From Pseudarthrobacter psychrotolerans (GTDB taxonomy: Bacteria > Actinomycetota > Actinomycetes > Actinomycetales > Micrococcaceae): a stretch of 64,000 nucleotides of DNA. A model generated the notes under the pieces. That model made no database searches and was not told the DNA's origin. It worked only from the letters and a program-made list of their open reading frames with translations. The DNA is taken from assembly GCF_009911795.1 (NCBI RefSeq), contig NZ_CP047898.1, positions 806,001 through 870,000 of the forward strand, in the 5' to 3' direction. Made by a program: the position numbers and the translations under genes. Positions 11,941 to 39,017 of the stretch are shown piece after piece (within the stretch, counting starts at the first letter, position 1; each line of letters opens with the position of its first letter).

Positions 11941-12025
11941 GAGGTTCTCTCTTCTTTGAAAGGGGGCATTGAAGTACGACGGCGGGAGGTTGGCTTGGGT
12001 GCCGGCGTCGCCTAGGCACTGGAAC

Positions 12026-13539
12026 TCAGGCGCCGAATTTCGGAGTGTGGACCGTGCCGAGGCTGATGTGCACGGCCTGCTGGTCGGTGTAGAAATCGAT
12101 GGAGCGGTAGCCGCCTTCGTGGCCGAGGCCGGAGGCTTTGACGCCGCCGAACGGGGTGCGGAGGTCGCGGACGTTATGGCTGTTCAACCAGACCATGCCG
12201 GCTTCCACGTTCTGGGAGAAGTTGTGGGCGCGGGTCAGGTTCTGGGTCCAGATGTAGGCAGCGAGCCCGTAACGGGTGTTGTTCGCCAGAGCCAGCGCCT
12301 CGTCGTCGTTCTCGAACGGGGTGATGGCGACGACGGGACCGAAGATCTCCTCCTGGAAGATCCGCGCGTCCGGCGCGACGTCGGCAAACACGGTGGGTGC
12401 GATGTAGTTGCCTTCGGGGAGGTGGCCGGGGCGGCCGCCGCCGGCGAGCAGCCGGCCCTCGGTCTTGCCGATCTCCACGTAAGAGGCCACCTTCGCGTAG
12501 TGCTCGGGGTGGACCAGGGCACCCACCTCGGTCTTGGGATCGTGCGGGTCGCCCACCACGATCTTCTTGGCCCGGGCGGCGTACTTTTCGCAGAACTCGT
12601 CGTAGATGGCGCGTTCGACGAGGATCCGGGAGCCGGCGGTGCAGCGTTCGCCGTTGAGGGAGAAGACCCCGAACAGGGCGGAATCGATCGCGGCGTCCAG
12701 GTCGGCGTCGGCAAACACCACACAGGGGATTTGCCGCCGAGTTCCATGGACAGGCCCTTGAGGTTGGCGGCGGCGTTGCGGAAGATCGTCTGGCCCGTGG
12801 TGGTTTCGCCGGTGAAGGAGATCAGCGGGACGTCCGGGTGCTTGACCAGGGCGTCGCCGGCTTCTTCGCCGAGGCCGTTGACAAGGTTGAAGACACCGTC
12901 CGGCAGGCCGGCGTCCTTGAAGATCTGCGCCCACAGTGAGGCGGACAGCGGGGTGAATTCGGCTGGCTTGAGGACCACGGTGTTACCGGTGGCCAGGGCC
13001 GGGGCGAGCTTCCAGGACTCCAGCATGAAGGGGGTGTTCCACGGAGTGATGAGGCCGGCGACGCCGATCGGCTTGCGGTTCACGTAGTTGATCTGGGCGC
13101 CGGGGACCTTCATGGCGTCGTCGAACTGGGCCACGATCAGGTCCGCGAAGAACCGGAAGTTTTCCGCCGCGCGCAGTGCCTGGCCCTTGGCCTGGGTGAT
13201 GGGCAAACCGGTGTCGAAGGTTTCGAGTTCGGCGAGGCGCTCCTCCTGGGCTTCGACGGCGTCGGCAATCCTGTTCAGGACGCGGGCACGTTCGCGCGGC
13301 CTCATCTTCGGCCACGGACCGTTGGCGAAGGCTTCGCGGGCAGCGGCGACGGCGAGGTCGATGTCTTCCTTCTGGCCGGCCGCAGCGGTGGCGTAATTCC
13401 GGTTGGAGACAGGGTCCAGGACATCGAAGGTTTTACCGCCCACGGAGTCAACGAACTGGCCGTTGATGTAGTGCTGGATGTGGGTGGGGAGGTCCTGCGG
13501 AACGTAGTGGGTGGTGGTAACAGGAGCGGTAAACGTCAT
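12026..13539 (-). pseudogene. hpaE: 5-carboxymethyl-2-hydroxymuconate semialdehyde dehydrogenase, one-base frameshift
   Basis: Aldehyde dehydrogenase superfamily. The first frame (from ATG 13539) carries the NAD-binding part with ITPWNTPFMLESWKLAPALA and ends sensibly at MELGGKSP. The rest, from VVFADADLDAAID with the catalytic Cys in NGERCTAGS and the C-terminal FGGVKASGLGHEGG, is in another frame. At the four-C run (GGGG at 12725-12728 on the plus strand) one extra base rejoins them as KSPCVVFAD, giving 504 residues, the normal HpaE length. NAD-dependent oxidation of the HpaD product. As written the protein would lack the catalytic Cys. Probably a consensus error, otherwise the pathway is blocked. 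Confidence 0.88.
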
Positions 13540-13563
13540 TGTTGTCTTCCTAACTGATAGTGC

Positions 13564-13624
13564 AACGCGGGGTCACTTACGGCCCATACGGGGGCCATTA
13601 ATGGGCGCTAAGTGACCCCGCGTT
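13564..13624 (-). terminator. Long hairpin spanning the end of the GntR gene
   Basis: A perfect 16-bp inverted repeat (13564-13579 with 13609-13624, AACGCGGGGTCACTTA and its complement) encloses a second 6-bp pair (GCCCAT / ATGGGC). The right arm supplies the last codons of the regulator gene. It separates that gene from hpaE and may act as terminator. The symmetry is unusually high for a plain terminator, so it may also be a dispersed palindromic element. Confidence 0.55.
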
Positions 13625-23285: not shown

Positions 23286-24547
23286 ATGACCACAACACCC
23301 ACCTTCACCGCCCCCGACGCCGCCTTTGTTGAAGACTTCCTCGTCATGAGCCAGTTCGGCGCCACGGAAAACGGCGGCGTGGACCGCCAGGCGGCCACCA
23401 TCGCCGACGGCGAGCAGCGCCGTTGGCTGACGGGCCTGCTGGAGGCCCGCGGATTCACCGTGAAGTTTGACCGTGCCGGCAACCAGTGGGGCCTTTTCGA
23501 GGCCGTGCCGGGGGCACCGTTTGTCGTGGTTGGCTCGCACATGGATTCGCAGCCGACGGCGGGCCGTTACGACGGTGCCTTCGGTGTCCTGGCCGCCGCG
23601 CACGCTGCGTTCCGGCTGGTGGAGAAGTGGGCCGGCGGCGCCGCTTCCGGGAAGCCGAAGTTCAACATCGCCGTGGTGAACTGGTTCAACGAGGAAGGTT
23701 CCCGCTTCAAGCCGTCCATGATGGGGTCCTCCGTCTACACCGGGAAGCTCGCCCTTGAAACGGCACTCGACACCACGGACACGCAGGGAATCAGTGTCCG
23801 CGAGGCCCTGGACGGGATCGGCTGCCGGGGGACTACGAGGGGCCGGCGGCTGCGTACTGCGCCGAAATCCACATCGAGCAGGGCCGCAGCATGGAACGCG
23901 ACGGCATCACCATCGGCCTGGTGCAGTCCAGCTGGGCGGCCAACAAGTATGAGTTTGTGGTCCACGGCGAGCAGGCCCACACCGGTTCCGCCGTGATCGC
24001 GGACCGCAAGGACGCCCTCCTGGGCGCCGCCATGCTTGTGGTGGCCGCCCGCGAACTCGCTGACCGGTTCCCGGGCGTGCTGCACACCTCGGTGGGTGAG
24101 TTGACCGTCTACCCCAACTCGCCGGTGGTGGTTCCCTCCCGGGTTAACCTGTTGCTGGACCTGCGCAGCGCGGACGAGTCCGTCCTGGCCAAGGCCGATG
24201 CGCTCCTCTACGAACGGATCCCGGCGATTGAACGCGCCGCCAACATCAGCGTGGAACGGAACCACTCACACTCCTGGCCGGTGACCCCGTACCAGACCGA
24301 AGGCGTGGAGCTCGCAGCCAAGGTGGCCGCGGACCTGGGCCTGTCCAGCAAGCAGGTCATGACGCTCGCCGGGCACGATTCGATCAACATGAAGGACCTG
24401 GTCCCCACCGTGATGCTGTTCGTCCCCAGCGTGGACGGAATCTCCCACAACGAGCATGAATACACCACTGACGAGGACATCGTGGCCGGCCTCGCCATGC
24501 TCACCGAAGTGGTCAACCGTCTCTGCAACGGGGTCCTGGAGGACTAG
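23286..24547 (+). pseudogene. Zn-dependent hydrolase, N-carbamoyl-amino-acid hydrolase (M20/HyuC) family, one-base frameshift
   Basis: Part one (23286 to about 23826) holds VVGSHMDSQPTAGRYDGAFG with the first metal His and Asp, and NWFNEEGSRFKPSMMGSSVY with the bridging Glu residues. Part two, in another frame, continues EGPAAAYCAEIHIEQGRSME, AANKYEFVVHGEQAHTGS and GHDSINMKDLVPTVMLFVPS. Adding one base to the five-G run at 23827-23831 joins them into 420 residues, the normal length for L-carbamoylase/allantoate amidohydrolase/ureidopropionase enzymes. Cleaves a carbamoyl or amide C-N bond in the cytoplasm. Start ATG at 23286 has AGGGGAA upstream. The break is probably a sequence error. Confidence 0.87.
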
Positions 24548-24658: not shown

Positions 24659-25517
24659 CTAGCGCTTGACGGCGTCGAGCTTGAGCATTTTGGCGATGAC
24701 GCCGTCCAGCTCGGAGTCGTCGAAGATCTTCTTCCAGTCGTCCTTGATGATGGTGTCCTTGCCGTACTGGATGGCGATTTCGCACGCCTCGGAGAACGGG
24801 TTGGAGCCACGGAGGGCGTTGGTCAAGGCGATCTGCACGTGGCCGAACAGCATGGCCTTGGCAGCTTCCTCAGGAACGCCGGCGGTGTGGACGGTCTCGT
24901 GCAGCGCCTCGTTGAGGAGGGTGCCGATCATGCAGGCAACGGTTTCCACCAGGGTGGGTTCGAGGATAGCGAGCTGCTTGACGGTGACCCAGTGCACGTC
25001 GATCACGGGGCGTAGATGGTGCGGATGACGGCCTCGGCCGAATCGCGGGTCGCCGTCGGTGCGTCCTCGTCGATCGCGGCAACCACGTTCTGCGGGGCGC
25101 CCTCGCCGCCGAAGGTGTCGGCCCATTCCTCTTTGGTGGTGCGCTCCAGGAACACGGACGGGTGGCACGGGTGCGCAACCGCCTGGACGACGTCGTCGCG
25201 CTTGGCCAGCAGCCCGGCGTAGGCGGCGGCGGGGTCCAGGGTGAGCAGGATCGCCCCGGCCTTCAGCTGCGGAACAACGCCCTCGGACACAACGCCCAGG
25301 ACGGTGTCCGGGACGGCGAGGATGACCACGTCGGCGCCCTTGACGGCGTCCTCAGTGGAGGTGATGTCGCGGCCTTCGGCGCGGACGCGCTCCTGGCCGG
25401 CGGGGAGTTCTCGCTGAAAAAGACGGTGTGGGCGCTCTTCTGGAGGTTCCGGGAAACGCGCATTCCCATTTTGCCACCGGCTCCGACGACGGCGACGGTC
25501 AATTTTCCTGCTGACAT
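24659..25517 (-). pseudogene. apnO: Probable D-apionate oxidoisomerase (6-PGDH-like NAD-binding protein), two one-base frameshifts
   Basis: Three frames in succession make one protein: KLTVAVVGAGGKMGMRVSRN (Rossmann GxGxxG) in the first, GADVVILAVPDTVLGVVSEG to IRTIYAP in the second, and VIDVHWVTVKQLAILEPTLV to the end KMLKLDAVKR in the third. Adding one base at GGGG 25402-25405 and one at GGGG 25007-25010 makes 286 residues with no other change. The C-terminal helical half is the phosphogluconate-dehydrogenase-like domain used by ApnO, which converts D-apionate to 3-oxo-isoapionate. Assignment rests on this architecture and on the neighbours OiaC-, LerI-, DerI-, LerK- and ApnL-like. Last gene of the minus-strand operon; starts 2 bp after the OiaC-like gene. 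Confidence 0.72.
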
Positions 25518-25518
25518 T

Positions 25519-26334
25519 TCACTTGCTCCTTAGGAATTCGATGCTGTGTTGGGTCCACTGGTTTTCGAGGCGGATGGTCTCCGCCTCGGAGTCCTGCCAC
25601 GGCAGCCAGTGTTCGACGATCTGGTTGATATTTCTTTGGTGGGGCTGGAATTTGGTGACCATGTACTCGTACTCGAGCAGGCCTTCGCCGAGCGGTGCGC
25701 CGGCATAGGTGAACCCGACCCAGCCGTCCTTGCGGCTGAACGCGAAGTCCTTGACGTGCATGTTCAGGACGTAAGGCGCGACGGCGTCAATCACCTCACG
25801 CGGCATCTCCAGCGCAGCGACCGTGTTGGCCGGGTCGCTGCAGATGCCGAGGTAAGGGCTGTCCACTCCGCGGATCACGTCCAGGATCCGGGAGGTGGGC
25901 ACCTGTTCGTAGGTTTCCACCGCGATCTTTACCCCGGCGGCTTGGAACTCCGGCAGGACCTCCTTGAAGATCGCCACGGCTTCCTCCGCCGTCGGGGTGT
26001 GGCCCGGGACGTTGAACATGGTCCGCAGTAAGGGCGAGCCCAGGATCCCGGCGATGTGCAGGAATTTCCGCAGGTGCTCCGCGCGGATGCCCTTGGTGCC
26101 GAGCTCCAGGGCGATGCCCAGCCGGTCAGCTGTTGCCCGGACGGCAACCAGCTCGGAGTCCGTCATGGCTTCCAGCGGGGTGTAGTCGCAGACCTGGAAG
26201 AGGTCCACGCTGAGTTCCGCGGTCCGCTCCAGCGACTGGTGGATGCTGAGCGGTTCGGCGACCTTGTCCGAGAGCTGCCAGAAGAAGGCGTAGCTGCTCA
26301 GGCCGATCCGTGAGCCCTGGCCGGTGGCGTTCAT
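25519..26334 (-). CDS. oiaC: Xylose-isomerase-like TIM barrel protein, probable 3-oxo-isoapionate decarboxylase
   Basis: 271 residues of the sugar phosphate isomerase/epimerase family (AP endonuclease 2 fold). Metal ligands are suggested by AVETYEQVPT (Glu), LGICSDPANT (Asp), LNMHVKDFAF (His, Asp) and the late GEGLLEYEYM (Glu). The family includes OiaC, which decarboxylates 3-oxo-isoapionate to L-erythrulose. Here it lies exactly between an ApnO-like gene and the L-erythrulose enzymes, which supports that reaction. Start ATG at 26334 overlaps the LerI stop (ATGA). Without the context it would be called only a sugar phosphate isomerase/epimerase. Confidence 0.7.
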   Translation of the reverse strand: MNATGQGSRIGLSSYAFFWQLSDKVAEPLSIHQSLERTAELSVDLFQVCDYTPLEAMTDSELVAVRATADRLGIALELGTKGIRAEHLRKFLHIAGILGSPLLRTMFNVPGHTPTAEEAVAIFKEVLPEFQAAGVKIAVETYEQVPTSRILDVIRGVDSPYLGICSDPANTVAALEMPREVIDAVAPYVLNMHVKDFAFSRKDGWVGFTYAGAPLGEGLLEYEYMVTKFQPHQRNINQIVEHWLPWQDSEAETIRLENQWTQHSIEFLRSK

Positions 26335-27149
26335 ACCGTCGCCTCCGCTGCTGCCAGCCACGCGGTCGTCTCGTCCAGGATGGTCTTCAGCGCCTTCGGA
26401 TCGTGGGCGAAGCGGCCCAGGAACAGGCCGGCGACGGCGGAGTCCAGCCTGGTGATCAGGCCGGGTCCGGCGCTGCCGCCGTAGATCACGCGGCTGTCGG
26501 CCTGGCCGGGCAGGGTGCGCAGGTGCGCGTCCAGCCCGGTGATGACGGCGCTGATGTATTCCGGGGTTGCGGGTGCCGGGGCGCCGATGGCCCATTGCGG
26601 CTCGTAGGCCACGATGGTCCGGCCTGCGGGTCCCAGCGACTGGGCACGGTTGAGGGCGGCGTCGATCTCGGCAGTGCACTGCGCGACAGCCTCTTCCGGC
26701 GAACCGGCGTGCAGCTCCCCGACGCACAGAACCGGCGTGAGGCCGTTGCGGTAGGCGGCGGCGGTCTTCAGCCCGATGACCGTGTCATCTTCGCCAAAGA
26801 TCCGGCGGCGTTCGGCGTGGCCCACCTCGGCGTACCGTCCGCCGAGCTCGGCCACGGTCTTGCCGCCGACTTCACCGGTGAACGAGCCTTCGTCTTCCCA
26901 GAAGATGTCCTGGGCGCCCGCGGCGGCTCCTGCAGTGCCCAGGATGCGGGCAGCTTCGGGAAGCACCGGGAGGGTGGGCAGGACGAACAGCTCGATGTCC
27001 CCGCTCTGGATGGCCGGGTGCGCGAACGCGATGCCAGCCACGTCGCGGCAGTAATCAACCGAACGCTGGTAGCCGAAGTACATCTTCAGGCTGACGCCGA
27101 TGATGGCTTTCGGTTTTGTCGCTGTCTTAGCAGGAAGTGACACCCTCAT
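26331..27149 (-). CDS. lerI: Triose-phosphate isomerase family protein, probable L-erythrulose 1-phosphate isomerase
   Basis: 272 residues with the complete triose-phosphate isomerase catalytic set: Lys in [10 protein letters not shown], His in [13 protein letters not shown] and Glu in [10 protein letters not shown], plus phosphate loop [10 protein letters not shown]. The housekeeping tpiA lies in the gap-pgk operon of actinobacteria, so this is a specialised paralogue. LerI/EryH-type paralogues convert L-erythrulose 1-phosphate to D-erythrulose 4-phosphate. The start overlaps the RpiB-like gene by 23 bp, and the stop overlaps OiaC, so the genes are tightly coupled. Confidence 0.85.
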
Positions 27150-27597
27150 AGTCCTTAATCAGTGTGACTTTCTCGGCCGAAGCGGAGGTTTCGTCGAAGG
27201 TGTAGGTGAGCCATTCCTTGGCGAGGCGGCGTGCCAGTTCCAGGCCGACGACGCGCTGGCCGAAGGTGAGGACCTGGACGTTGTTGCTCAGGATGGAGCG
27301 TTCAACGGAGTAGCTGTCGTGCGCGGTGACGGCGCGGATGCCGGCGACCTTGTTCGCGGCGATGGCTACGCCGAGCCCGGTGCCGCAGACCAGCAGGGCA
27401 CGGTCGGCCTTGCCGGCGGCGATGAGTTCGGCGGCCGTGATGGCCACGGACGGGTAAGGGGTGTGGCTCGTGGCATCCACTCCCACATCGGTCACGGATT
27501 CAACCAGGTCGGAGGCCTCCAGGTCAGCCTTGAGGGCTTCCTTGTAGTCGAATCCGGCGTCGTCGGCTCCGATGACCAGGCGCAGTTTGGCGCTCAT
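27127..27597 (-). CDS. derI: RpiB-family sugar phosphate isomerase, probable D-erythrulose 4-phosphate isomerase
   Basis: 156 residues from ATG 27597. RpiB/LacAB fold with [26 protein letters not shown], and the active-site Cys in [20 protein letters not shown] followed by [14 protein letters not shown]. Interconverts a ketose and aldose phosphate; in tetrose pathways DerI/EryI makes D-erythrose 4-phosphate from D-erythrulose 4-phosphate. The start overlaps the kinase stop by 4 bp (ATGA). A longer in-frame start at 27831 lies within the kinase gene and gives nonsense, so it is rejected. Confidence 0.87.
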
Positions 27598-29393
27598 GCG
27601 TTCTCCTTGACTGAGTTGTTGAGGACTGTGTTGTTGCTGGGGGTGTTCCCGGCGGGGGATTTCTCGCCGAAGGTGTTGTGGATGGCCCGGACGATCAGGG
27701 CCATGGAGACCGCTCCGGCGTCCGGGGTGCCGAGGCTCTTCTCGGCGTGCGGCCGGGCGCGGCCCATGAGGGGCAGCAGCGCGGCGGTATCGTCGGCGGC
27801 CTGCTGCGCAACGGTCGCGGCGGCGCCCCACGCGTCGGTGAGGGACTGCCCGGCGTGCACGCCGGCTGCCAACGCGTCGCGGAACGGGACCAGGACGTCC
27901 ACCAGGGTCTTGTCCCCGGGCTTGGCCTTGCCAAAGTCCATGATCGCGGACGCGGCGCCGGCGACTCCGGCGGCGACAGCTCCGGCGTCGGGGGCTTTGG
28001 TGTCCCCGACCGCGTCACCGACGGCCCGCAGGGCCATGCCCCAGAGAGCGCCGGACGTGCCGCCTGCTTTGTCGGACCAGGCGTCCGCGGCGAAGTGCAG
28101 CGTGGTGGCGGCACCTGCGCCGCGGGCGACGGCGTCAGTTGCGGCCTCGACGGCGGCGCGGACGCCGCGTTCCATGCCGATGCCGTGGTCACCGTCGCCG
28201 GCGATCGCATCGATCCGGCCCAGTTCGTCGGCGTTGGCGTCCACCACGGTCCTCGCCGCGCCGAGCGCGGCGAGGACACGGACGGCACCCGCGCGGGACT
28301 CCGCCGTCGCGTCAGGAATGGAACGTTCGACGTCGGCCAGCTCGCCGCCGTCGGAAGCGTCCAGTGCCGCCGCCGTCACGGCGCCGCGGCGGAAAGCCGG
28401 CGCGTCGGCCGGGGCGTTCCAGTGCGTCTCTAATTCGTCGTCGAGCCAGAACAGGGTGAGGGACGTGCCGGCCATGTCGAAGCTGGTCACCAGTTCGCCC
28501 ACCTGCGGGTCCACGGCTTCCAGGCCGGCCTCGGCCAGGAGCTGGGCCACGCGGCGGTAGACCACGAAGAGTTCCTCGTACTTCACGCTGCCCAGGCCGT
28601 TCAGGATGGGGACCACGCGCGGTCGGGCAGAAGCGCCGCTGGTCTCCAAACCGTCAGGGACTTCGGTGAGGAGCTTGGCAACCAGCAACTCGGCGAGCTC
28701 ATCCGCCGTCGGGATCTCCGTCTCGCCGATGCCGGGTTCGCCGTGGATGCCCATGCCCACGGCCATCCGGCCCTCGGGGACGGAGAAAAGGGGGTGGTCG
28801 GCGCCCGGCAGGGTGCAGCCGGTGAAGGCCACGCCGAAGGAACGGGTGCGGTCGTTGGCGCGCTCGGCGATGGCGACGACGTCGTCCATGGAGTAGCCGG
28901 CTTCCGCTGCGGCGGCGGCCACCTTGAAGACGGTCAGGTCTCCGGCAATGCCGCGGCGTTTGGTGCGTTCGGCCAGCGGGGCGGAGGAGACGTCGTCGGT
29001 GACGGCGATGCTGCGGCAGTCAATGCCTTCCTTGCGGAGGCGGTCCTGGGCCTGGTTGAAGTGCAGGACATCACCGGCGTAGTTGCCGTAGCCCAGCAGC
29101 ACGCCGGCGCCGTTGTTGGCGGCAATCGACACGTTGTAGACCTGCTGCGCCGAGGGGGACGCGAAGAGGTTGCCCATGGCGGCGCCGTGCGCCAGGCCCT
29201 GTCCCACCAGGCCGGCGAATGCCGGGTAGTGGCCGGAGCCTCCGCCGATCACCAGGGCCACCGTGTCCGGGGTGCTCTTGGTGTTGCGGACCACGCCGCC
29301 CGAGACACGCTTCACCCAGCGGCCGTGGGAGGCAACAAAGCCTTCGATCATCTCGTCAGCGAAGGCTGCTGGTTCATTGAAAAGGCGTGTCAT
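27594..29393 (-). CDS. lerK: Dihydroxyacetone kinase family protein (DhaK-DhaL), probable L-erythrulose kinase
   Basis: 599 residues containing both halves of ATP-dependent dihydroxyacetone kinases. Residues 1-330 are DhaK with [20 protein letters not shown] and the covalent substrate His region [28 protein letters not shown]. Residues about 370-580 are DhaL with [16 protein letters not shown] (three Asp that bind Mg-ATP) and [12 protein letters not shown]. Glycerone, glyceraldehyde or erythrulose can be the substrate. Neighbouring LerI and DerI homologues argue for L-erythrulose 1-phosphorylation. First gene of the operon; AGGAG lies before ATG 29393. Confidence 0.87.
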
Positions 29394-29511
29394 GGGGAGC
29401 TCCTGGGCCTAACTGCGGGGAAGTCGGTTCGGGTGGTGCGGAGTGGGGGCGGTTGGGGAGCGGAACTCGGTCTCGGCAGGCTCCGCCACGGGATTGTTGT
29501 GTTGGTGCGGA

Positions 29512-29536
29512 GGCGTCCCCGGGTAAGGGGGACGCC
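29512..29536 (-). terminator. Hairpin after the transporter gene
   Basis: GGCGTCCCC (29512-29520) and GGGGACGCC (29528-29536) form a perfect 9-bp stem downstream of the MFS stop at 29548. No U tract is visible on the minus strand. It may limit read-through into the lerK operon. Confidence 0.4.
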
Positions 29537-29547
29537 CCCCGGGTCTG

Positions 29548-30912
29548 TTACGGCTCGGCGTGGTGGCCGGCCCCCGCAGGGTCAAGGGCTTCGGCCGGGA
29601 TGCCGTCGCTGACCTTGCCGGAGCGGCTCAGCGCCACCATGAGGATGGAGGACAGGAGCATAAAGCCGCCGACCACGAACATCGGCACCGTGTAGCTGCC
29701 GGTCAGGTCCTTGAGCCAGCCCGTGATGTACCCGGCGCTGAATCCGGCCAGGTTGCCAACGGTATTGATCAGGGCGATGCCGGCAGCGGCTGCTGCGCCG
29801 GTGAGGAACTGGGTGGGCACGGTCCAGAAGTTGGGCAGTGCCGCGAAGATCGACATGGCTGTGATGGTGATGACGGCGATCGTGGCGGCCGGCGAACCGG
29901 CGAACAGCGCCAGCGGGATGCTGAGGCCGCCGATGAGGGCCGGAAGGGCGATGTGCCAGGTCTTCACGCCGCGCTTGGTGGCGTCCTTGGACCAGAAGTA
30001 CAGGGCGAACGCCGCCGGCAGGTACGGGATGGCGGTGATGAGGCCCTTCTGGAGCACGTCGAACTTGGCGCCGTAGAGGCCTTCGAAGCCGGCAATGATG
30101 GTGGGCAGGAAGAACCCGAGGGCGTACAGGCCGTAGATGAAGCCGAAGTAGATGGCGGACAGCATCCAGACCCGGCCGTTGCCGAAGACGGTGCGGACGC
30201 TGACGTGCTTGTTGCCGGCGGTTGTCGCCTTCTTTTCCGTCTCCAGTGCGCCGGTCAGCCAGGTCTTTTCCTCGGCAGTCAGCCACTTGGCCTTGGCCGG
30301 GGAGTCAGCGAGGTAGAACCAGGCGATGATGCCGACGATGATCGCCGGAAGTGCCACGCCGAGGAACATCACGCGCCAGCCTTCAAGCCCGAAGAAGCCG
30401 TGCTGCTGGATGAGAAGGCCGGCCAGCGGGGCACCGATCACGGTGGTCAGCGGCTGGGCCAGGTAGAAGAGGGCCAGGATCTTGCTGCGGTGGCGGGACG
30501 GCACCCAGAGGCTCAGGAAGAGGATGGCACCGGGGAAGAAGCCGGCCTCGGCCACACCAAGAATGAAGCGCAGGATGTAGAGGTGCTCCACGCTGCCCAC
30601 CCAGGTGAACAGCAGGGACACAATGCCCCAGCTGACCATGATCCGGGCCAGCCAGCGGCGGGCGCCGAACTTGTGCAAGGCCAGGTTGCTGGGAATTTCC
30701 AGCAGGATGTAGCCGATGAAGAAGACGCCTGAGGCGAAGCCAAACTGGGCTGCCGAGAGGGCCAGGTCCGTATTCATGCCGTTCGGACCGGCAAAGGAAA
30801 TTGCCGTGCGGTCCAGGTAATTGATGAAGAACATCAGGGCAACGAACGGGACAAGCCGGATCGCCACTTTCCTGATTGCAGATTTTTCGACCACCGATTG
30901 TGTGGGGTCCAC
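29548..30912 (-). CDS. MFS transporter, anion:cation symporter type (sugar acid transporter)
   Basis: 454 residues from GTG at 30912, chosen because AGGAG lies 6 bases before it; an ATG at 30945 is in frame but poorly placed. Twelve helices. MFFINYLDRTAISFAGP near the start and GYILLEIPSNLALHKFGARRW are the hallmarks of ACS-family transporters for hexuronates, galactonate and other sugar acids. Its likely substrate is D-apionate or its lactone, given the flanking genes; inferred from context only. The perfect operator palindrome at 31047 lies 135 bp upstream, between it and the divergent GntR gene. Confidence 0.88.
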   Translation of the reverse strand: MDPTQSVVEKSAIRKVAIRLVPFVALMFFINYLDRTAISFAGPNGMNTDLALSAAQFGFASGVFFIGYILLEIPSNLALHKFGARRWLARIMVSWGIVSLLFTWVGSVEHLYILRFILGVAEAGFFPGAILFLSLWVPSRHRSKILALFYLAQPLTTVIGAPLAGLLIQQHGFFGLEGWRVMFLGVALPAIIVGIIAWFYLADSPAKAKWLTAEEKTWLTGALETEKKATTAGNKHVSVRTVFGNGRVWMLSAIYFGFIYGLYALGFFLPTIIAGFEGLYGAKFDVLQKGLITAIPYLPAAFALYFWSKDATKRGVKTWHIALPALIGGLSIPLALFAGSPAATIAVITITAMSIFAALPNFWTVPTQFLTGAAAAAGIALINTVGNLAGFSAGYITGWLKDLTGSYTVPMFVVGGFMLLSSILMVALSRSGKVSDGIPAEALDPAGAGHHAEP

Positions 30913-31046
30913 GTTGACTCCTAGATGTTGATGTCCCGGCCGCATCCTGCGCTGGAGGCGTGGGGCTGGTTTCGAGGCTTCGCGGCGTGGTGCTTGCCGG
31001 AGGGGCTAGGCCTGTGATCTCAACCATAGGACTTTTCGTTAAATTG

Positions 31047-31060
31047 GTCAACCGGTTGAC
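31047..31060. promoter_or_regulatory. Operator palindrome GTCAACCGGTTGAC, copy 1
   Basis: A perfect 14-bp palindrome in the divergent spacer between the MFS transporter and the GntR regulator. The same 14 bases, with a shared flanking TTGG/TTTGG on the left and T on the right, occur again at 31933, in front of the ApnL-like gene. The repeated occurrence beside a GntR/FCD gene makes it a good operator candidate. Confidence 0.75.
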
Positions 31061-31152
31061 TGCATGTAGTTTCTTGCACTGATGGTTGAGCCTGTCGAAA
31101 CCCAGGGCCCGGGCTCTCGACAAGCTCGATCACCCGGTCCGGTTGCTACGCT

Positions 31153-31902
31153 GTGACTGTGTCCCTAAATTCCGCCGCCTCGACGGCCAAAATCAGCGCA
31201 GCTCTTGGTTCCATGGGACAGGGCTCTGTCGTATCCGAGGTGGCCGAAAGGCTGATGGCCTACTTCACCAGCGGTGACATCGCCGCCGGAACCCGGCTTC
31301 CCGCCGAACGCCAGCTGGCGGCTTCGCTCGGCGTCGGACGTTCAGCGGTGCGCGAAGCGCTGGCCGCGTTGGAAATCCTGGGCATCGTCATCGTGCGCCC
31401 GGGGTCGGGAACCTACCTGCGCGACGGCGTCTCCGAACTCCTGCCGCGGACCCTCAGCTGGGGGCTCATGCTGGGGGAGCCGAGGACTCGTGAGCTGGTT
31501 GAGCTGCGGAGTGGCCTTGAAGTGCAGGCCGTGCAGCTGGCCGCGACGAGGATTACCGAAGAGGCGTTGGAGCGCATGCGCACCAACCTTGAGTCCATGG
31601 AGAGGAACCTGGGCAACCTTTCGGCCTTCGTCGAGGCTGATGCCGCCTTCCATAAGGAAATCGCTGCGGGCTCGGGAAACCAGGTGCTTCAGGAGCTGCT
31701 GCAAAGCATCCGGTCCCTGCTGCGGATCTGGGTGGACCGGGCGCTGACCGACGAGGGGCACGCTGCGGCCGCCCTGAAGGAACATGCCGAGATCTTTGCT
31801 GCCCTTCAGGCCCGTGATGCCGGGGCGGCCACCGTCACCATGCATTTGCACATGGAGACCGCTTCACGGCGTCTGCTCGTTGGCTTCGACGCGGCGCAGT
31901 AG
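31153..31902 (+). CDS. GntR-family regulator, FCD subfamily
   Basis: 249 residues from GTG 31153. Winged helix at about residues 24-90 (VSEVAERLMAYFTSGDIAAG, LPAERQLAASLGVGRSAVRE), then an FCD domain with RELVELRSGLEVQAVQLAAT, EADAAFHKEIAAGSGNQVL and LKEHAEIFAALQARD. Divergent from the sugar acid transporter and upstream of the ApnL-like gene. The perfect palindrome GTCAACCGGTTGAC flanks it on both sides, so it probably autoregulates and represses transporter and lactonase until a pathway sugar acid binds. Confidence 0.92.
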   Translation: MTVSLNSAASTAKISAALGSMGQGSVVSEVAERLMAYFTSGDIAAGTRLPAERQLAASLGVGRSAVREALAALEILGIVIVRPGSGTYLRDGVSELLPRTLSWGLMLGEPRTRELVELRSGLEVQAVQLAATRITEEALERMRTNLESMERNLGNLSAFVEADAAFHKEIAAGSGNQVLQELLQSIRSLLRIWVDRALTDEGHAAAALKEHAEIFAALQARDAGAATVTMHLHMETASRRLLVGFDAAQ

Positions 31903-31932
31903 TTGGCGCCAACCAACGCTAGTCCACTTTTG

Positions 31933-31946
31933 GTCAACCGGTTGAC
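31933..31946. promoter_or_regulatory. Operator palindrome GTCAACCGGTTGAC, copy 2
   Basis: Identical to the site at 31047. It lies 31 bp after the GntR stop and 120 bp before the GTG start of the ApnL-like gene, so it probably controls that gene. Confidence 0.72.
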
Positions 31947-32066
31947 TTGTAGTGGGATGTAATTCCATAATCGGAGATGGCCTGACTCATGGGCCGTCTT
32001 TGAGTTTGCACTAGCCAAGCCGGATACCCGGGCCATAGCAGCCCCGGGCCGGCGGAGAGCAGCGAT

Positions 32067-34117
32067 GTGTCTTTCCAGCCCCTTCCGGATGACGAACCCG
32101 GCCTGTCCCGCCTTGGGATTTCACGCCCCGGTCCCGAAAATCTGGCACCCTCCCGCCTGGCACCCTCCCGCCTGGCACCCTCCCGCCTGGCACCCTCCCG
32201 CCTGGCACCCTCCCGCCTGGCACCCGACCGCCGGGCCCTGTCCGCGGGACCATGGTCTGCCGAGCTTGTCGGCGACGAACTTGCCCACATCAGCTACCTT
32301 GGGCGTCCCGTGCTGCGGGCGGTCAAAGCCGTGGTCCGGGACCAGGATTGGCGTACGCCGCAGCCGGCCGTCCGCACCCTTGAGGTCACCCAGGACAACG
32401 GGCTCCTGCAGGCGCGGTGGACCGTCCGCTTTGCCGGCCACGGCGTCGAGTACGACGGCTTCCTGACGGCAGACTTCACCCCTGCGGCCGTGGAGATTGC
32501 GTTCGAGGGTACAGCCGTCCATACGTTCCGCAGCAACAGGATCGGCCTGGTGGTGCTCCACCCGCCTGGCGACGCCGGAAGGGACGTCACCGTGGAACAT
32601 CCCGACGGCGGCAGCACTGCCGCTCAGTTCCCGAACGACATCAGTCCGCACCAGCCGTTCATGGACATCGCGGCCCTCGAATGGGCCGACGCCGACGCCG
32701 GCACCGCCTTCCGCCTGTCGTTCACCGGCGATGTCTTCGAAACCGAAGACCAGCGCAACTGGACCGACGGTTCCTTCAAGACCTACAGCACACCGCTGGC
32801 ACGGCCGTTCCCGGTGGACGTCGCGGCCGGAGACGCCGTGCGGCAAGCGGTGCGCCTGGAGGCCGCCATTATGGACGCCGGCACCGTGGACGCCGCCATT
32901 GTGGATGCCGGCTCCCTGGAATCGCAGGAGTCTACGGGAGCGGCCGCAGGCACGTCCGCAGGCCGTTTCGCCGCCGGAGCGAACGGCACCCCCACACGGA
33001 TTGCCGCCAGCCTCGGCCCTGCGGCCGCCCGCGTTCCCCGGCTGGCCGTGGGGCAGGACCCCGGGCCGGAGTGCTTCCCCCGATGACCGGACTGGATGCG
33101 GTCCTGGTGGAACTCGTTGAAGAGCCTGGCGACACGCCCTGGTCCGGCTGGGCTGCCCGGCTGCAGGCCGCCGCGGAGGAGGCTGCCGTCCACGGTGCGG
33201 GTCTGGACATCCGGGCCGTTGCCGCGGACTCCGGTGCGCTGGCGGCGGAGCTCGCCCCGTACCTTTCCCAGGCCAAGCGGCTGGCGGTATTCCACCCGTC
33301 CAGCCACCTCACCGAACCGGGCAGCTGGCCGGAACTGAAGTCCTCACTTCGTACCGCCGGTTTCCGCGGAGAGCTCCTTGCCGGTGTCCGTTCGCACTTC
33401 ACGGAACTCAACCGCAACAGCGGCCGCACGCCGTCGGACTCGGATGCCCTGACCTTCAGCATCACGCCACAGATGCACAGCACCGAGACCGCGCACATCA
33501 TCGACACCGTGCCCATGCAGCGGCTGGTGGCGCAGAACGCACTCCGGCTGGGCGGCGGAAGGCCCGTGCATGTGGGGCCGGTGACCCTGCTGCCGCGTTT
33601 CAATGCCGTCTCCACGTCCGGCGAAGCCCCCGAGGCCGCAGCGGATGAACTCCAGCCGGAACCATTTGCTGCGGCCTGGACCCTGGCGAGCATCGATGCG
33701 CTCACCCTGGACGGAGTGGAATCGGTCACCTACTTCGAAGCCTTCGGCCCGAGGGGAATTTCCGACGCCGGCGGCCGGCTCAATCCTGCCGGCGAACTCC
33801 TGAAGGAGCTCGCCGCGCTCCGGGGCAGCGCCGTGTTGTCGGTCCAGGGCGAGGGGCGATCTTCACTGACCCTCTATCCCGTGGTGTCATCCTCCGGGCT
33901 GGCCCTTTTTGCCGGAAATCTCTCTGCATCCGCCCTGGAGGTGGAGGTGCGGCTCCCGGAAGGCACCGCCGCCGCTGACGGCAAATGCACGGTTTTCGGG
34001 CAGGACCGGGGTTCGGCCATTCGCTTCATAGCCAACAACGACGGCGGGAAGGCCGCGGGGCGGCTCACCCTGGGACCCTGGTCCGCCGGCGTCGTCCGCT
34101 TTCCTGCCACCCGCTGA
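32067..34117 (+). pseudogene. apnL: Probable D-apionate lactonase, one-base frameshift
   Basis: Two frames. The first (from GTG 32067, GGAG upstream) encodes a repeat-rich N-terminus and a beta-rich domain ending near RNWTDGSFKTYSTPLARPFP. The second (from about 33083) gives MTGLDAVLVELVEEPGDTPW, a barrel-like region with SITPQMHSTETAHIIDTVPM and a C-terminal beta domain ending at 34117. Adding one C to the run 33077-33081 joins them into 683 residues. The three-part layout and the NWTDGSFKTY motif match my memory of ApnL proteins, which open D-apionolactone to D-apionate. Presence in this cluster supports the name. No alternative glycosidase motif was seen. Residues about 265-300 contain a low-complexity insert with repeated DAAI and DAG. 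Confidence 0.65.
32142..32231 (+). repeat. Six tandem 15-bp units at the start of the ApnL-like gene
   Basis: CTGGCACCCTCCCGC occurs five times perfectly (32142-32216) and once with two changes (32217-32231). The unit length keeps the frame and encodes Leu-Ala-Pro-Ser-Arg. It sits in a disordered N-terminal stretch before the first conserved strand. Confidence 0.95.
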
Positions 34118-34123
34118 ACCGCT

Positions 34124-34515
34124 GTGCCGTTGAGCCGCGGACCATACTTTGCGCCCTCCAAGGATGGCGTCACGCCAACGAAAGGCATGTCCACGGACTC
34201 GTTGTCCAGCAGCCATTGCACTTGCAGGCCATCCATCAGGGCCGCGAGTTGGCGGGCCGCGGCGGCGGGAACGATGTCCGGCCGAAGCTGGCTGGGCCGC
34301 TGCATCTCCGCGAAGGCCTCGGTCGTGGTGCCGCGCACTCACGCGTAGCGCCGCTGGAAGTAGCCGTGGGCCGGGTGGTCAGGGGGTCTTCGGCCTCGGC
34401 TGACAATACGCAGGAGAGGCGACGAGGCGGGGGATGGTGGTGTTGTAATGCGTGAGCTCCACCAGGCCGCGCAGCATGTCGATCCCCTTGGTGGTCAGGG
34501 ACCGCGTGCGCGGAT
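34124..34515 (-). pseudogene. TetR-family regulator remnant (C-terminal ligand domain)
   Basis: The minus strand carries, in three frames, LTTKGIDMLRGLVELTHYNT, then LSCVLSAEAEDP, then DHPAHGYFQRRYA, a TGA where Trp is expected, and RGTTTEAFAEMQ...ARQLAALMDGLQVQWLLDNE. These pieces in this order form the effector domain of TetR regulators related to those found next to glycoside hydrolase genes. The DNA-binding N-terminus is absent and the C-terminus breaks off after SVDM into unrelated codons. With two frame changes, a nonsense codon and both ends missing, this is a true pseudogene. Confidence 0.65.
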
Positions 34516-34689: not shown

Positions 34690-36135
34690 GTGGCTGACGC
34701 AGTCCTGACGAACACCGGAGCCGAAGAACGCGGGCTCGCCAGAGTAGCCCAACGGATGGCGGCCTGGACCGAGAAGTGGTTCCCGGATGCCTACATCTTT
34801 GCACTGGCCGGCGTTGTCATCATCGCCGTGGCCGCCTTGGCTATCGGTGCTTCACCGCAGTCGATCGCCGACTCCTTCGGCAACGGCTTCTGGGATCTGA
34901 CTGCGTTCACCCTGCAGATGGCCATGGTGGTACTGACCGGTTACGTGGTGGCCACGTCGCCGCCGGTGGCGAAGCTCATCAACCGGCTGGCACTGATCCC
35001 TGCCACGGCACGCACTGCGGTGAGCTTCGTGGCGTTGATGTCCATGTCCGTGTCCTTCCTGAACTGGGGTCTCAGCCTCGTCTTCGGAGGTCTGCTGGCC
35101 CGGGCCATTGCCCGCCGCAAGGACCTCACGGTGGACTATCGGGCGCTTGGCGCGGCGGCGTTTATGGGACTCGGAGCCGTCTGGGCGCTGGGGCTGTCCT
35201 CGTCCGCCGCCCAGCTGCAGGCCACCGCGGCGTCGCTGCCGCCGGCTTTGCTGAAGATCACCGGGATCCTGGACTTCGGGGCCACGATTTTCACGTGGCA
35301 GTCCCTGCTCACCCTGGCCATCCTGATGGCCCTCACAACCGTGATCGCGCACTTCTCCGCGCCCCAGGGCGGTGCGATCCGCACAGCGGAGGATCTCGGC
35401 GTCGACCTCGACGACGAACCCAGCGAATCGGCGCCCCGGTCACGCCCGGGCGAGTGGCTCGAATACAGCATGATCCTGCCGATCCTTGCGGGCATCCTGA
35501 CCTTGGGCTGGCTGGTCTCCCAGTTCCTGACGAAGCCGTTCCTGACCGTGGTCAGCAGCCTTAACGGATACCTGCTGGTCTTCCTGATCCTGGGCCTGGT
35601 GCTGCATGGAACACCACGGAAATTCCTGCAGGCCGTCACCAAGGCCGTTCCGGCGACCGCCGGGATACTGGTCCAGTTCCCGCTCTACGCCGCCATGGCA
35701 GCCATCCTGACCAAAGCCACCGGCCACGGCGGGATGACCATCTCCGCGCATCTGGCAGAGTTCTTCTCCGACATCGGCGGAGGAGGCGCATTCGCTGTGG
35801 TCATTGCGCTCTACACCGCCGTGCTGGGCCTGCTGGTCCCGTCCGGCGGGGGTAAATGGCTGGTGGAGGCGCCCTACGTGATGCAGTCCGCGACCGATGT
35901 GCAGATGAACCTCGGCTGGACCGTGCAGATCTACAACATCGCCGAGGCCCTGCCCAACCTGGTCAATCCCTTCTTTATGCTGCCGCTGCTCGCGGTCCTG
36001 AGGCTCCGGGCCAGGGACCTCGTGGGCTTCACCTTCCTGCAGTTCCTGTTCCACCTGCCTGTGGTGCTGCTGCTGGTCTGGCTGCTGGGGATGACCTTCC
36101 AGTTCGTCCCGCCGGTGATGCCCGCCGGACAATAG
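34690..36135 (+). CDS. Short-chain fatty acid transporter (AtoE family)
   Basis: 481 residues from GTG 34690 with GAGAGG upstream. Around 12 hydrophobic segments; the family signature appears as WTEKWFPDAYIFALAGVVII, FWDLTAFTLQMAMVVLTGYV, FLNWGLSLVFGGLLARAIAR and PSGGGKWLVEAPYVM, matching the E. coli AtoE/short-chain fatty acid uptake group. Imports acetoacetate, butyrate or similar acids. It stands alone between a pseudogene area and the IS element. A GGGGGTACCCCC palindrome follows the stop at 36137-36148. Confidence 0.9.
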   Translation: MADAVLTNTGAEERGLARVAQRMAAWTEKWFPDAYIFALAGVVIIAVAALAIGASPQSIADSFGNGFWDLTAFTLQMAMVVLTGYVVATSPPVAKLINRLALIPATARTAVSFVALMSMSVSFLNWGLSLVFGGLLARAIARRKDLTVDYRALGAAAFMGLGAVWALGLSSSAAQLQATAASLPPALLKITGILDFGATIFTWQSLLTLAILMALTTVIAHFSAPQGGAIRTAEDLGVDLDDEPSESAPRSRPGEWLEYSMILPILAGILTLGWLVSQFLTKPFLTVVSSLNGYLLVFLILGLVLHGTPRKFLQAVTKAVPATAGILVQFPLYAAMAAILTKATGHGGMTISAHLAEFFSDIGGGGAFAVVIALYTAVLGLLVPSGGGKWLVEAPYVMQSATDVQMNLGWTVQIYNIAEALPNLVNPFFMLPLLAVLRLRARDLVGFTFLQFLFHLPVVLLLVWLLGMTFQFVPPVMPAGQ

Positions 36136-36660: not shown

Positions 36661-38229
36661 GTGAAGTCTCCAGGAGAGTTCATGGAAATTTTAGCTGCTT
36701 ATGATTTGACCCGTTCGTACCGGGATGCCGCGAAGATCTGCGGCGTTTCGCACAACACTGTCCGTTCGTATGTGAAGGCCCGGCAGGAAGGCGTCCAAGC
36801 GCCGGTCGCCCGCCAGCGGGGACGGATCACTGACCCGTTCCTGCCGCAGATGAAGTCGCTGGTCGAGCAGTCCCGCGGGAAGATCCGCGGGGACGTTGTG
36901 CACGGAAAACTCGTTGATCTGGGCTATCCCGGATCGATCCGCACGACCCGCTACGTGCTGGCCGGGCTGAAGTCGAAATACCGGGCCCAAAACACCCGTG
37001 TTCACCGGCCCTGGACTGTGGAGCCAGGCCTGTGGCTCCAATGGGACTACGGAGACGGGCCCGTCGTTGACGGCGCCAAAACGGTGTTGTTCGTGGCCTG
37101 GCTGGCGTATTCACGCTTCCGGATCGTGATCCCTTTGCGGGATAAGACCATGCCGAGCGTCTTCGCCGCCCTCGACCGCTCCTTCCGGCTCATCGGCGGG
37201 GTCCCGACGTACATTTTGACCGACAACGAGAAGACCGTCACGGTCGAGCACGTTGCCGGGGTGCCGGTCCGTAACCCGCAGATCGTCGCGTTCGCCCGGC
37301 ACTACTCCACCGCCGTGCACACCTGCATGCCGGCGGACCCGGCCTCGAAGGGCGGGGTGGAGAACGCGGTCAAGATCGCCAAAGCCGACATCGTGCCCAA
37401 AGACACGAACCTGCGCCCGGACTACGCCTCCTTCGCCGAGCTGGAAGCGGCGTGCGAGGCGTTTATGGAGGATGTGAATTCCAAGGTCCACCGGGCCACC
37501 CTGGAGATCCCCCAGGACATGCTGAGACTGATCGAGCAGCCCAAGCTGCACCCGGTCCCTGCAGTGCCGGTGACGGCCAGTTTCGGGCAGGTCCGGCAGG
37601 TCCCGCCGAACACTCCCATGGTCACCTACGAGCACGCCCGCTACTCCGTCCCGCACACCCTGATGGGGCAAAGGCTCTGGGTGCGCGGCACCGACACCGA
37701 GGTCATCATCGTCCATGTCGGCGAGGCCGGGCCGGTGGAAGTCGCACGCCATCCACTCACCCGTCCCGGCGTGCCGGCGATCATTGACGCCCACTTCCCG
37801 CCCGCCAATGCCGGGGCCCTGGAACGGGTGATCCGCCCCACGAACACCGCCGAAGAGGAGTTCCTGGCACTCGGCGCCGGGGCAGCGCTCTGGCTCAAAG
37901 AAGCCGCCGCAGCCGGGACGAACAAGATCCGCCACAAGATGGAACGCGCCGCCACCATGGCCAAGGTCATGGGCGCCGACGTCGTTGACCAGGGTCTCGG
38001 CGCCGCCGCCGTGCACCACCGCTTCAGCCACGAGGACCTGGTCTCCATCATCACCAACACCGCCACCGGCCAGCCGCAAAGAACCATCAGCACTACCCGG
38101 CACGCCGTCACCGACCAAGGCCAGTGGCTGAGCCAGGGCACCAGCGCATGGGCCAACTTCGGTACCACCAACACCCCTACCACCAGCGATGCCAGCGACG
38201 TTGCCGATCTTGAAGGAGCCACCGAATGA
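36661..38229 (+). CDS. istA: IS21-family transposase IstA
   Basis: 522 residues. N-terminal helix-turn-helix (YRDAAKICGVSHNTVRSYVK), then the integrase/RNase H fold with catalytic residues in LWLQWDYGDGP (first Asp), YILTDNEKTVTV (second Asp) and PASKGGVENAVKIAK (Glu), and a C-terminal beta domain (HARYSVPHTLMGQRLWVRGT). Starts at GTG 36661; an ATG at 36682 is also in frame. Stop overlaps istB start as ATGA, giving coupled translation. It cuts and joins the element ends together with IstB. Confidence 0.95.
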   Translation: MKSPGEFMEILAAYDLTRSYRDAAKICGVSHNTVRSYVKARQEGVQAPVARQRGRITDPFLPQMKSLVEQSRGKIRGDVVHGKLVDLGYPGSIRTTRYVLAGLKSKYRAQNTRVHRPWTVEPGLWLQWDYGDGPVVDGAKTVLFVAWLAYSRFRIVIPLRDKTMPSVFAALDRSFRLIGGVPTYILTDNEKTVTVEHVAGVPVRNPQIVAFARHYSTAVHTCMPADPASKGGVENAVKIAKADIVPKDTNLRPDYASFAELEAACEAFMEDVNSKVHRATLEIPQDMLRLIEQPKLHPVPAVPVTASFGQVRQVPPNTPMVTYEHARYSVPHTLMGQRLWVRGTDTEVIIVHVGEAGPVEVARHPLTRPGVPAIIDAHFPPANAGALERVIRPTNTAEEEFLALGAGAALWLKEAAAAGTNKIRHKMERAATMAKVMGADVVDQGLGAAAVHHRFSHEDLVSIITNTATGQPQRTISTTRHAVTDQGQWLSQGTSAWANFGTTNTPTTSDASDVADLEGATE

Positions 38230-39017
38230 GCGCGACAGCCCTGGCCCCCAGCCCGCTGGCGGATGCGGCCGTGGAGCACGTCATCGCGTTGATGCGCACC
38301 ACCCGGATGCCGCACGCCCGCGCCGTTGTCGCCGAGGTGTTGGCGACCGCGAAGGCCCAGCGCTGGGACCCCACAGAAGTCATTCGCGTCTTGCTCGAGG
38401 CCGAAGCAACGGGCCGGAACCGGTCGATGCTCGCCACCCGGCGCAAACGCGCGGGGTTCCCCACCGGGAAAACGTTCGATGTCTGGGACGAGTCCCTCTC
38501 CACCCTGCCGGCTGCGACGACCTCGTTCCTGCGGACCCTGGAGTGGGTGCGGCGGAGGGAGAACCTGATCGCGTGCGGGCCCTCCGGGACCGGGAAAACC
38601 CTGCTGCTGGAATCCCTGGGCCAGCAGGCCATCGACGAAGGCATGTCCGTGTCGTGGCTGAGTCTGGAGGACCTCGGCGCCCTCGTGCGCCGGCACCGCA
38701 TCGATGACAGCGTCAACAAGGCCATCACCCGCGTTACCGGCGTGGATTTGATTTGCATTGATGACGTAGGACTTTTGCCGGTTTCCGGCGATGCCGCCGA
38801 GGGTTTCTACCGCGTCGTGGAGGCCTCCTACGAGAAACGCTCCCTGGCGATCAGCTCGAATATCCACCCCTCCGGCTTTGATGAGTTGATGCCCAAAACC
38901 ATCGCCACCGCGACCGTGGACCGGCTCATGCACCACGCACACCTATGCCAAACCAGCGGCGAGTCCGTCCGGCTCATGCAAGCCCAAAACGGGAAAGGAA
39001 CCCGCCCGATGAACTAA
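38226..39017 (+). CDS. istB: IS21-family helper ATPase IstB
   Basis: 263 residues, DnaC/DnaA-like AAA+ ATPase. Walker A is LIACGPSGTGKTLLLES, Walker B is VDLICIDDVGLLPV, followed by sensor residues in SLAISSNIHPSGFDELMPK and a C-terminal arginine segment (TATVDRLMHHAHL). Assists IstA in target selection and strand transfer. Full length, no frame damage, overlapping istA by 4 bp. Confidence 0.95.
   Translation: MSATALAPSPLADAAVEHVIALMRTTRMPHARAVVAEVLATAKAQRWDPTEVIRVLLEAEATGRNRSMLATRRKRAGFPTGKTFDVWDESLSTLPAATTSFLRTLEWVRRRENLIACGPSGTGKTLLLESLGQQAIDEGMSVSWLSLEDLGALVRRHRIDDSVNKAITRVTGVDLICIDDVGLLPVSGDAAEGFYRVVEASYEKRSLAISSNIHPSGFDELMPKTIATATVDRLMHHAHLCQTSGESVRLMQAQNGKGTRPMN

Follow-up and report, generated by a model that had tools for sequence, protein, structure and literature searches.

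The rhizobial D-apiose pathway reportedly described by Carter et al. 2018 comprises a Gfo/Idh/MocA dehydrogenase, ApnL, ApnO, OiaK and OiaX, and the same work is said to have also described an OiaC branch that runs via L-erythrulose. OiaX is a RuBisCO-like decarboxylase acting on a phosphorylated acid. Here, we analyse a stretch of 64,000 nucleotides from the actinobacterium Pseudarthrobacter psychrotolerans (contig NZ_CP047898.1, positions 806,001 to 870,000; hereafter the window), which at 24659-34117 carries a cluster of eight genes. An earlier note on this DNA had given their order as apnO, oiaC, lerI, derI, lerK, a gene for an MFS transporter, gntR and apnL, and we found all eight families there in that order. 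We conclude that the locus probably encodes the lower steps of a D-apiose pathway of actinobacteria. The pathway is a variant of a known one. Its assignment is well supported; this strain has lost the entry step, for which its relatives offer a candidate dehydrogenase.

The locus shares with the rhizobial pathway the ApnL and ApnO families and the presence of triosephosphate-isomerase-type and RpiB-type isomerases within the cluster. It differs in having an OiaC-like protein and LerK where the rhizobial pathway has a sugar-acid kinase and OiaX. It also differs in the dehydrogenase, which is of the Gfo/Idh/MocA type in rhizobia, absent from this strain, and of the short-chain dehydrogenase (SDR) type in its relatives. 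With the OiaC branch it has in common the ApnO, OiaC, LerK, LerI and DerI steps. Plasmids of Pantoea sp. At-9b (L176) and Erwinia sp. E602 (L177) hold MFS-LerK-LerI-OiaC-ApnO in the same order as here, and this common gene order on enterobacterial plasmids suggests a transfer between phyla. The plasmids carry a "sugar-binding transcriptional regulator", whereas here the regulator is a GntR protein, ApnL is attached, and the actinobacterial relatives have an SDR-type dehydrogenase. To our knowledge, the tetritol catabolism of Mycolicibacterium smegmatis involves no ApnO, OiaC or ApnL. Its likeness to the locus lies in the passage from erythrulose phosphates to D-erythrose 4-phosphate (excerpt of PMC12780249).

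Apiose occurs in the cell walls of plants and in many of their glycosides (excerpt of PMC11747546), and its breakdown is known from plant-associated and enteric proteobacteria and some gut anaerobes (excerpt of PMC13001218). The work of Carter et al. 2018 is touched on in the excerpts of PMC13001218, PMC11747546 and PMC6302742, and that of PMC10176493 names apiose only in a reference. Among the literature matches listed, all open-licence papers, there was no report of the pathway in Arthrobacter. On our reading, actinobacteria of soil and leaves would have a coherent regulon for apiose, the dehydrogenase that had been missing would belong to one particular SDR family, and GTCAACCGGTTGAC would be a predicted operator open to direct testing.

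In the scheme that we propose, the GntR protein would sense a pathway compound and control two promoters via two copies of GTCAACCGGTTGAC, and the MFS protein would import D-apionate or its lactone. The lactone would be opened by ApnL. ApnO would then oxidise D-apionate and shift its hydroxymethyl group, giving 3-oxo-isoapionate, which OiaC would decarboxylate to L-erythrulose. LerK, LerI and DerI would convert the latter to D-erythrose 4-phosphate, which would feed the pentose phosphate pathway. The reactions are named here as in the published pathway. Many related ApnL operons encode, beside ApnL, an SDR that probably turns D-apiose into D-apionolactone, and in some relatives a PF13204 apiosidase-like enzyme and a transporter may supply the D-apiose; this strain is without SDR and apiosidase. 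The route from D-apionolactone via D-apionate, 3-oxo-isoapionate and L-erythrulose to D-erythrose 4-phosphate had been read by the earlier note, and it is supported by profiles, synteny in several lineages and a shared operator. The gene families, synteny, co-occurrence, operator copies and deletion are computed results; all substrates, the SDR reaction and the binding of GntR to the operator are predictions. The claim that the system is complete was not established, given the broken frames of apnO and apnL, an ApnL score under the equivalog cut-off, and the deletion of the upstream dehydrogenase.

Conservation and linkage of the core genes

Of 45 ApnL loci retrieved for the genus, 17 have all eight genes together, so the cluster is not due to chance. 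ApnO was counted in 72 of 198 genus genomes, a number in which fragments and a match with just 31% identity (G169) are included. The ApnO loci fetched from the 37 of these genomes that lack ApnL have the full seven-gene core in 19 of 20 cases, the other being without lerK and the MFS gene.

The computed co-occurrence extends beyond the genus. When 10 of the 396 genomes of the order were set aside as congeners, as listed, OiaC was present in 27 of the 28 ApnL genomes outside the genus versus 13 of the 358 other genomes. ApnL and OiaC are at most 20 kb apart in 19 of the 28. Twenty of the 28 loci were fetched, 19 of them picked for this closeness, and within the stretches OiaC is found in 19 and ApnO in 18. 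Our locus comparison also shows that lineages unrelated to one another have the OiaC gene next to those for ApnO and LerI/LerK.

Family membership of the enzymes

The two pieces of apnL in the window match the D-apionolactonase model NF049900 with E 8e-51 (first part, 173 bits) and 6e-9 (second part, 35 bits). A nine-row alignment shows that the LHP, EDQRNW, FTELNR and GPxT motifs are common to the actinobacterial ApnL and to rhizobial ones from operons with OiaX, ApnO and the Gfo/Idh/MocA enzyme. PF25838 is a precomputed assignment on ApnL relatives; in a Pfam search of three intact ApnL proteins, the two larger ones had no match and the third had one weak match. Among the 120 ApnL relatives listed, nearly all source names are "hypothetical protein", and one, P0047, is named D-apionolactonase. 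The actinobacterial protein might be a sugar-releasing glycosidase and no lactonase, which we consider improbable: the protein has kept the ApnL-family motifs FTELNR and EDQRNW, a common fold by itself says nothing of function, and a position next to a dehydrogenase suits a lactonase.

With ApnL read as a lactonase, the next step would fall to ApnO. The intact orthologue from locus L033, used as query, shares 41% identity over 273 residues with the ApnO encoded in an operon on a Rhizobium plasmid and is homologous to PDB 5t57 (E 5.9e-66), which we take to be ApnO. The Rhizobium operon also holds OiaX, a four-carbon acid sugar kinase, an ABC transporter, a Gfo/Idh/MocA oxidoreductase and ApnL. 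For oiaC, it is linkage that suggests the assignment. In a comparison of LerI with PDB, the solved L-erythrulose-1-phosphate isomerase 11ef ranks fourth (E 9.9e-31), after three entries named triosephosphate isomerase. Of the family checks proposed in the earlier note, the match to the ApnL family and the homology to ApnO held, and neither an ApnL score of 750 bits nor a curated OiaC match was obtained.

Three other features of ApnL genes were observed. The 5' part of apnL in the window (32067-32235) encodes a short tandem repeat of LAPSR units before the conserved domain, the start codon being uncertain. A second ApnL clade of the genus (L055, L057, L058 and similar loci) lies amid urocanase, arginase-family and permease genes, often without ApnO. 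The congener G090 has two ApnL copies (L032 and L033). Both have a GntR gene and a copy of the operator next to them, and the SDR follows only one of the two.

A predicted palindromic operator flanking gntR

The operator GTCAACCGGTTGAC, a 14-base palindrome, was derived from 10-mers shared among the intergenic regions between the MFS gene and gntR. Its core 10-mers are present in all 40 such regions, one from the window and 39 from relatives; for the last 10-mer the count is 38. The 5.17-Mb genome of the strain (3 contigs) contains exactly two copies, both in the window, which flank gntR and precede the main operon and apnL (Table 1). The 14-mer or a slightly shifted version was found in 34 of the 45 and 19 of the 20 fetched genus loci, in 7 of the 20 loci from the order, and in 25 of the 80 SDR loci described below. 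There was none in 20 sampled stretches (400 kb) of the strain, in 20 (400 kb) of the relative G016, or in two enterobacterial and two rhizobial loci. At the scale of the genus, the site is in 70 of 198 genomes, of which 66 have ApnO, versus 2 of 198 for a reversed control pattern; it is present in 66 of the 72 ApnO genomes and in 31 of the 31 SDR genomes. Palindrome patterns of other GntR types were also tried and matched only 7 of the 40 intergenic regions.

The GntR protein is the likely reader of GTCAACCGGTTGAC, a predicted binding, because it is the only regulator in the cluster. In 9 of 9 pairs, which were chosen by eye, the distance between the site and an apiosidase match is 3967-4021 bases. 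For apiosidase operons, a LacI protein is another possible reader.

A candidate D-apiose dehydrogenase and its loss from the strain

Of the 45 genus loci, 26 have an SDR of 251 residues called near apnL, mostly right after it. At E 1e-70 this protein is present in 31 of the 198 genus genomes, all 31 of which have ApnL and ApnO. Among named genomes, 114 SDR-type loci were confirmed and 80 of these retained. In 75 of the 80 the SDR reaches at least 55% identity; the remaining five are at 34-36%, with no ApnL seen. ApnL is within the fetched flanks in 69 of the 75 and adjacent on the same strand in 63. The loci without it there are L241, which ends at a contig end, L250, L271, L300, L301 and L306. 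ApnO is at most 8 kb away in 38 named SDR loci. A recurrent order has GntR divergent from MFS-LerK-DerI-LerI-OiaC-ApnO-SDR-ApnL (e.g., L234, L258-L261, L289 and L294), and 15 of the 20 order loci have the SDR. Rhizobial-type ApsD, OiaX and OiaK had no match at E 1e-12 in the named SDR loci.

The Gfo/Idh/MocA oxidoreductase of the Rhizobium operon matches PDB 5uhw over nearly its full length (E 3.9e-193), a series that we take to be the known D-apiose dehydrogenase ApsD. This type was found in 0 of 198 genus genomes, including this strain, in a search at E 1e-30 whose positive control did not give a signal. PF13204 apiosidases are present in 25 of the 198 genomes, 24 of them with the SDR. Some of their genes adjoin ApnL together with LacI and ABC-transporter genes, and others sit with GH78, GH43 and MFS genes. 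We propose that the SDR is probably a D-apiose dehydrogenase, non-homologous to the Gfo/Idh/MocA enzyme, that converts D-apiose to D-apionolactone. More broadly, we find it fairly likely that the actinobacterial SDR makes the apiose lactone as a member of a GntR regulon marked by GTCAACCGGTTGAC, which would join apioside import, PF13204 apiosidase, SDR, ApnL and ApnO/OiaC/LerK/LerI/DerI, and that the strain is a natural knock-out of the first step.

The strain lost the SDR gene through a clean 0.84-kb deletion at 34184. Window positions 33003-34185 align with locus L034 of the relative G042 up to its position 11336, and at 34184-34510 the match resumes from 12174 (91%). The missing stretch, 839 bases by this alignment, comprises the entire SDR gene (11344-12099) together with the end of the TetR-type gene behind it; two bases are shared at the joint. 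The SDR lies between matching flanks in L042, L032 and L039. The genome of the strain has no SDR match (E 1e-70) and no PF13204 apiosidase match, and a search of the window for an SDR remnant did not find one (best E 0.11). Entry as apionate or its lactone, in the absence of an apiose dehydrogenase, had been suggested by the earlier note; it fits the deletion of the SDR and the lack of ApsD, SDR and apiosidase matches in the genome.

Evidence against the assignment and a possible alternative substrate

Several observations weigh against assigning the locus to apiose. Some concern the linkage of the genes: ApnL occurs without ApnO in eight genus genomes and is missing from 37 of the 72 that have ApnO; OiaC lies elsewhere in 8 of the 28 ApnL genomes outside the genus, with none in G397 (75% complete); and 5 of the 20 order loci, all from one genus, are without the SDR. 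ApnO is missing from four of the genomes that carry the operator site, and six of those with ApnO do not have the site in its exact form. The co-occurrence p-values take no account of shared ancestry. Others concern the profiles. ApnL is under the equivalog cut-off of NF049900 (173 of 750 bits), which is passed by 0 of 198 genus genomes (best 195 bits, and 198 bits for an intact relative in another search) and by 0 of 396 order genomes (best 221.5 bits), and the ApnL orthologue of L033 is only about 30% identical to rhizobial ApnL over 469 residues. For oiaC there was no match to a curated OiaC model, NCBIfam yielding weak epimerase matches only; derI is under the rhizobial DerI model NF051858 (138 of 240 bits), and LerI is under the curated triosephosphate-isomerase cut-offs. 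Finally, apnO spans three frames, its middle and last pieces corresponding to residues 43-171 and 172-286 of the 286-residue relatives, and apnL changes frame near 33060.

The module could degrade another sugar acid or tetritols via L-erythrulose, the apionate label being borrowed. The low scores of DerI and LerI against the DerI and triosephosphate-isomerase equivalog models would suit this, as would the fact that erythrulose phosphates are also intermediates of tetritol pathways in bacteria (excerpt of PMC12780249). We judge it very unlikely, since almost every core locus seen has OiaC-ApnO next to LerI and DerI, and the module is linked with ApnL and PF13204 apiosidases. We retain D-apiose catabolism as the preferred reading.

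Broken reading frames

The frame breaks implied by the earlier note are present in the deposited sequence, two in apnO and one in apnL. They could mean that the cluster is decaying, the SDR being lost first and apnO and apnL then becoming pseudogenes, with the pathway dead in the strain. The three breaks and the deletion of the SDR gene fit such a history, and so does a homology-based check of 33.8 kb of the strain's own genes, window included, that saw no frame break outside the window. This check marked five sites, every one of them in the window. Three coincide with the breaks already noted in apnO and apnL; the other two, at 29520 and 30960, are at gene ends and were treated as spurious. 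In the control, 3 sites were marked in 74.5 kb, and these fell within a single stretch.

Against decay, the apnO and apnL pieces have Ka/Ks of about 0.03-0.26, i.e., they are under purifying selection. Frameshift-like junctions are enriched genome-wide, with 14 in 464 kb of the strain (4 in the window) versus 1 in 400 kb of G016; these rates were estimated on the window plus sampled stretches totalling 400 kb, and the detector missed the three breaks of the cluster and may flag some true gene borders. Unrelated genes of the window are split likewise: hpaE, for 5-carboxymethyl-2-hydroxymuconate semialdehyde dehydrogenase (12026-13572), lies in two frames, with the split at profile position 250/251, and a gene of the allantoate amidohydrolase type (23286-24547) is also spread over two. 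The excess of junctions and these split genes favour an assembly error, against which counts the single open frame of rpoB. We lean towards assembly error as the cause of the broken frames and regard decay as possible but doubtful.

Layout of the locus

Table 1. Features of the cluster and its surroundings (positions in the window).
Feature	Position	Strand	Remarks
apnO-like (D-apionate oxidoisomerase)	24659..25517	-	PGDH_C; intact orthologues of 286 residues; three frames, changes near 25.4 kb and 25.0 kb
oiaC-like (3-oxo-isoapionate decarboxylase)	25519..26334	-	271 residues; xylose-isomerase-like barrel, AP_endonuc_2
lerI (putative L-erythrulose-1-phosphate isomerase, TIM-type)	26331..27149	-	TIM fold
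derI (putative D-erythrulose-4-phosphate isomerase, RpiB-type)	27127..27597	-	TIGR02133 (actinobacterial RpiB type), 198 bits (cut-off 168)
lerK (putative L-erythrulose kinase, fused DhaK-DhaL)	27594..29393	-	NF011049, 730 bits (cut-off 492)
MFS transporter, sugar-acid type	29548..30945	-	Family profile
Predicted operator 1, perfect palindrome GTCAACCGGTTGAC	31047..31060	.	Between MFS gene and gntR
gntR regulator	31153..31902	+	GntR and FCD domains
Predicted operator 2, second copy of GTCAACCGGTTGAC	31933..31946	.	Between gntR and apnL
apnL-like (D-apionolactonase)	32067..34117	+	NF049900; one frame change
Deletion junction	34184..34185	.	Site of the SDR gene in relatives
TetR-type gene remnant	34184..34510	-	Gene follows the SDR gene in relatives

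The deletion junction is adjoined by a gene for a TIGR00366-type membrane protein at 34690-36135 (272 of 576 bits). Just past the cluster lies an IS21-family transposase gene (36661-38229), followed by an open reading frame at 38226-39017 that presumably encodes its ATP-binding partner, which it resembles.

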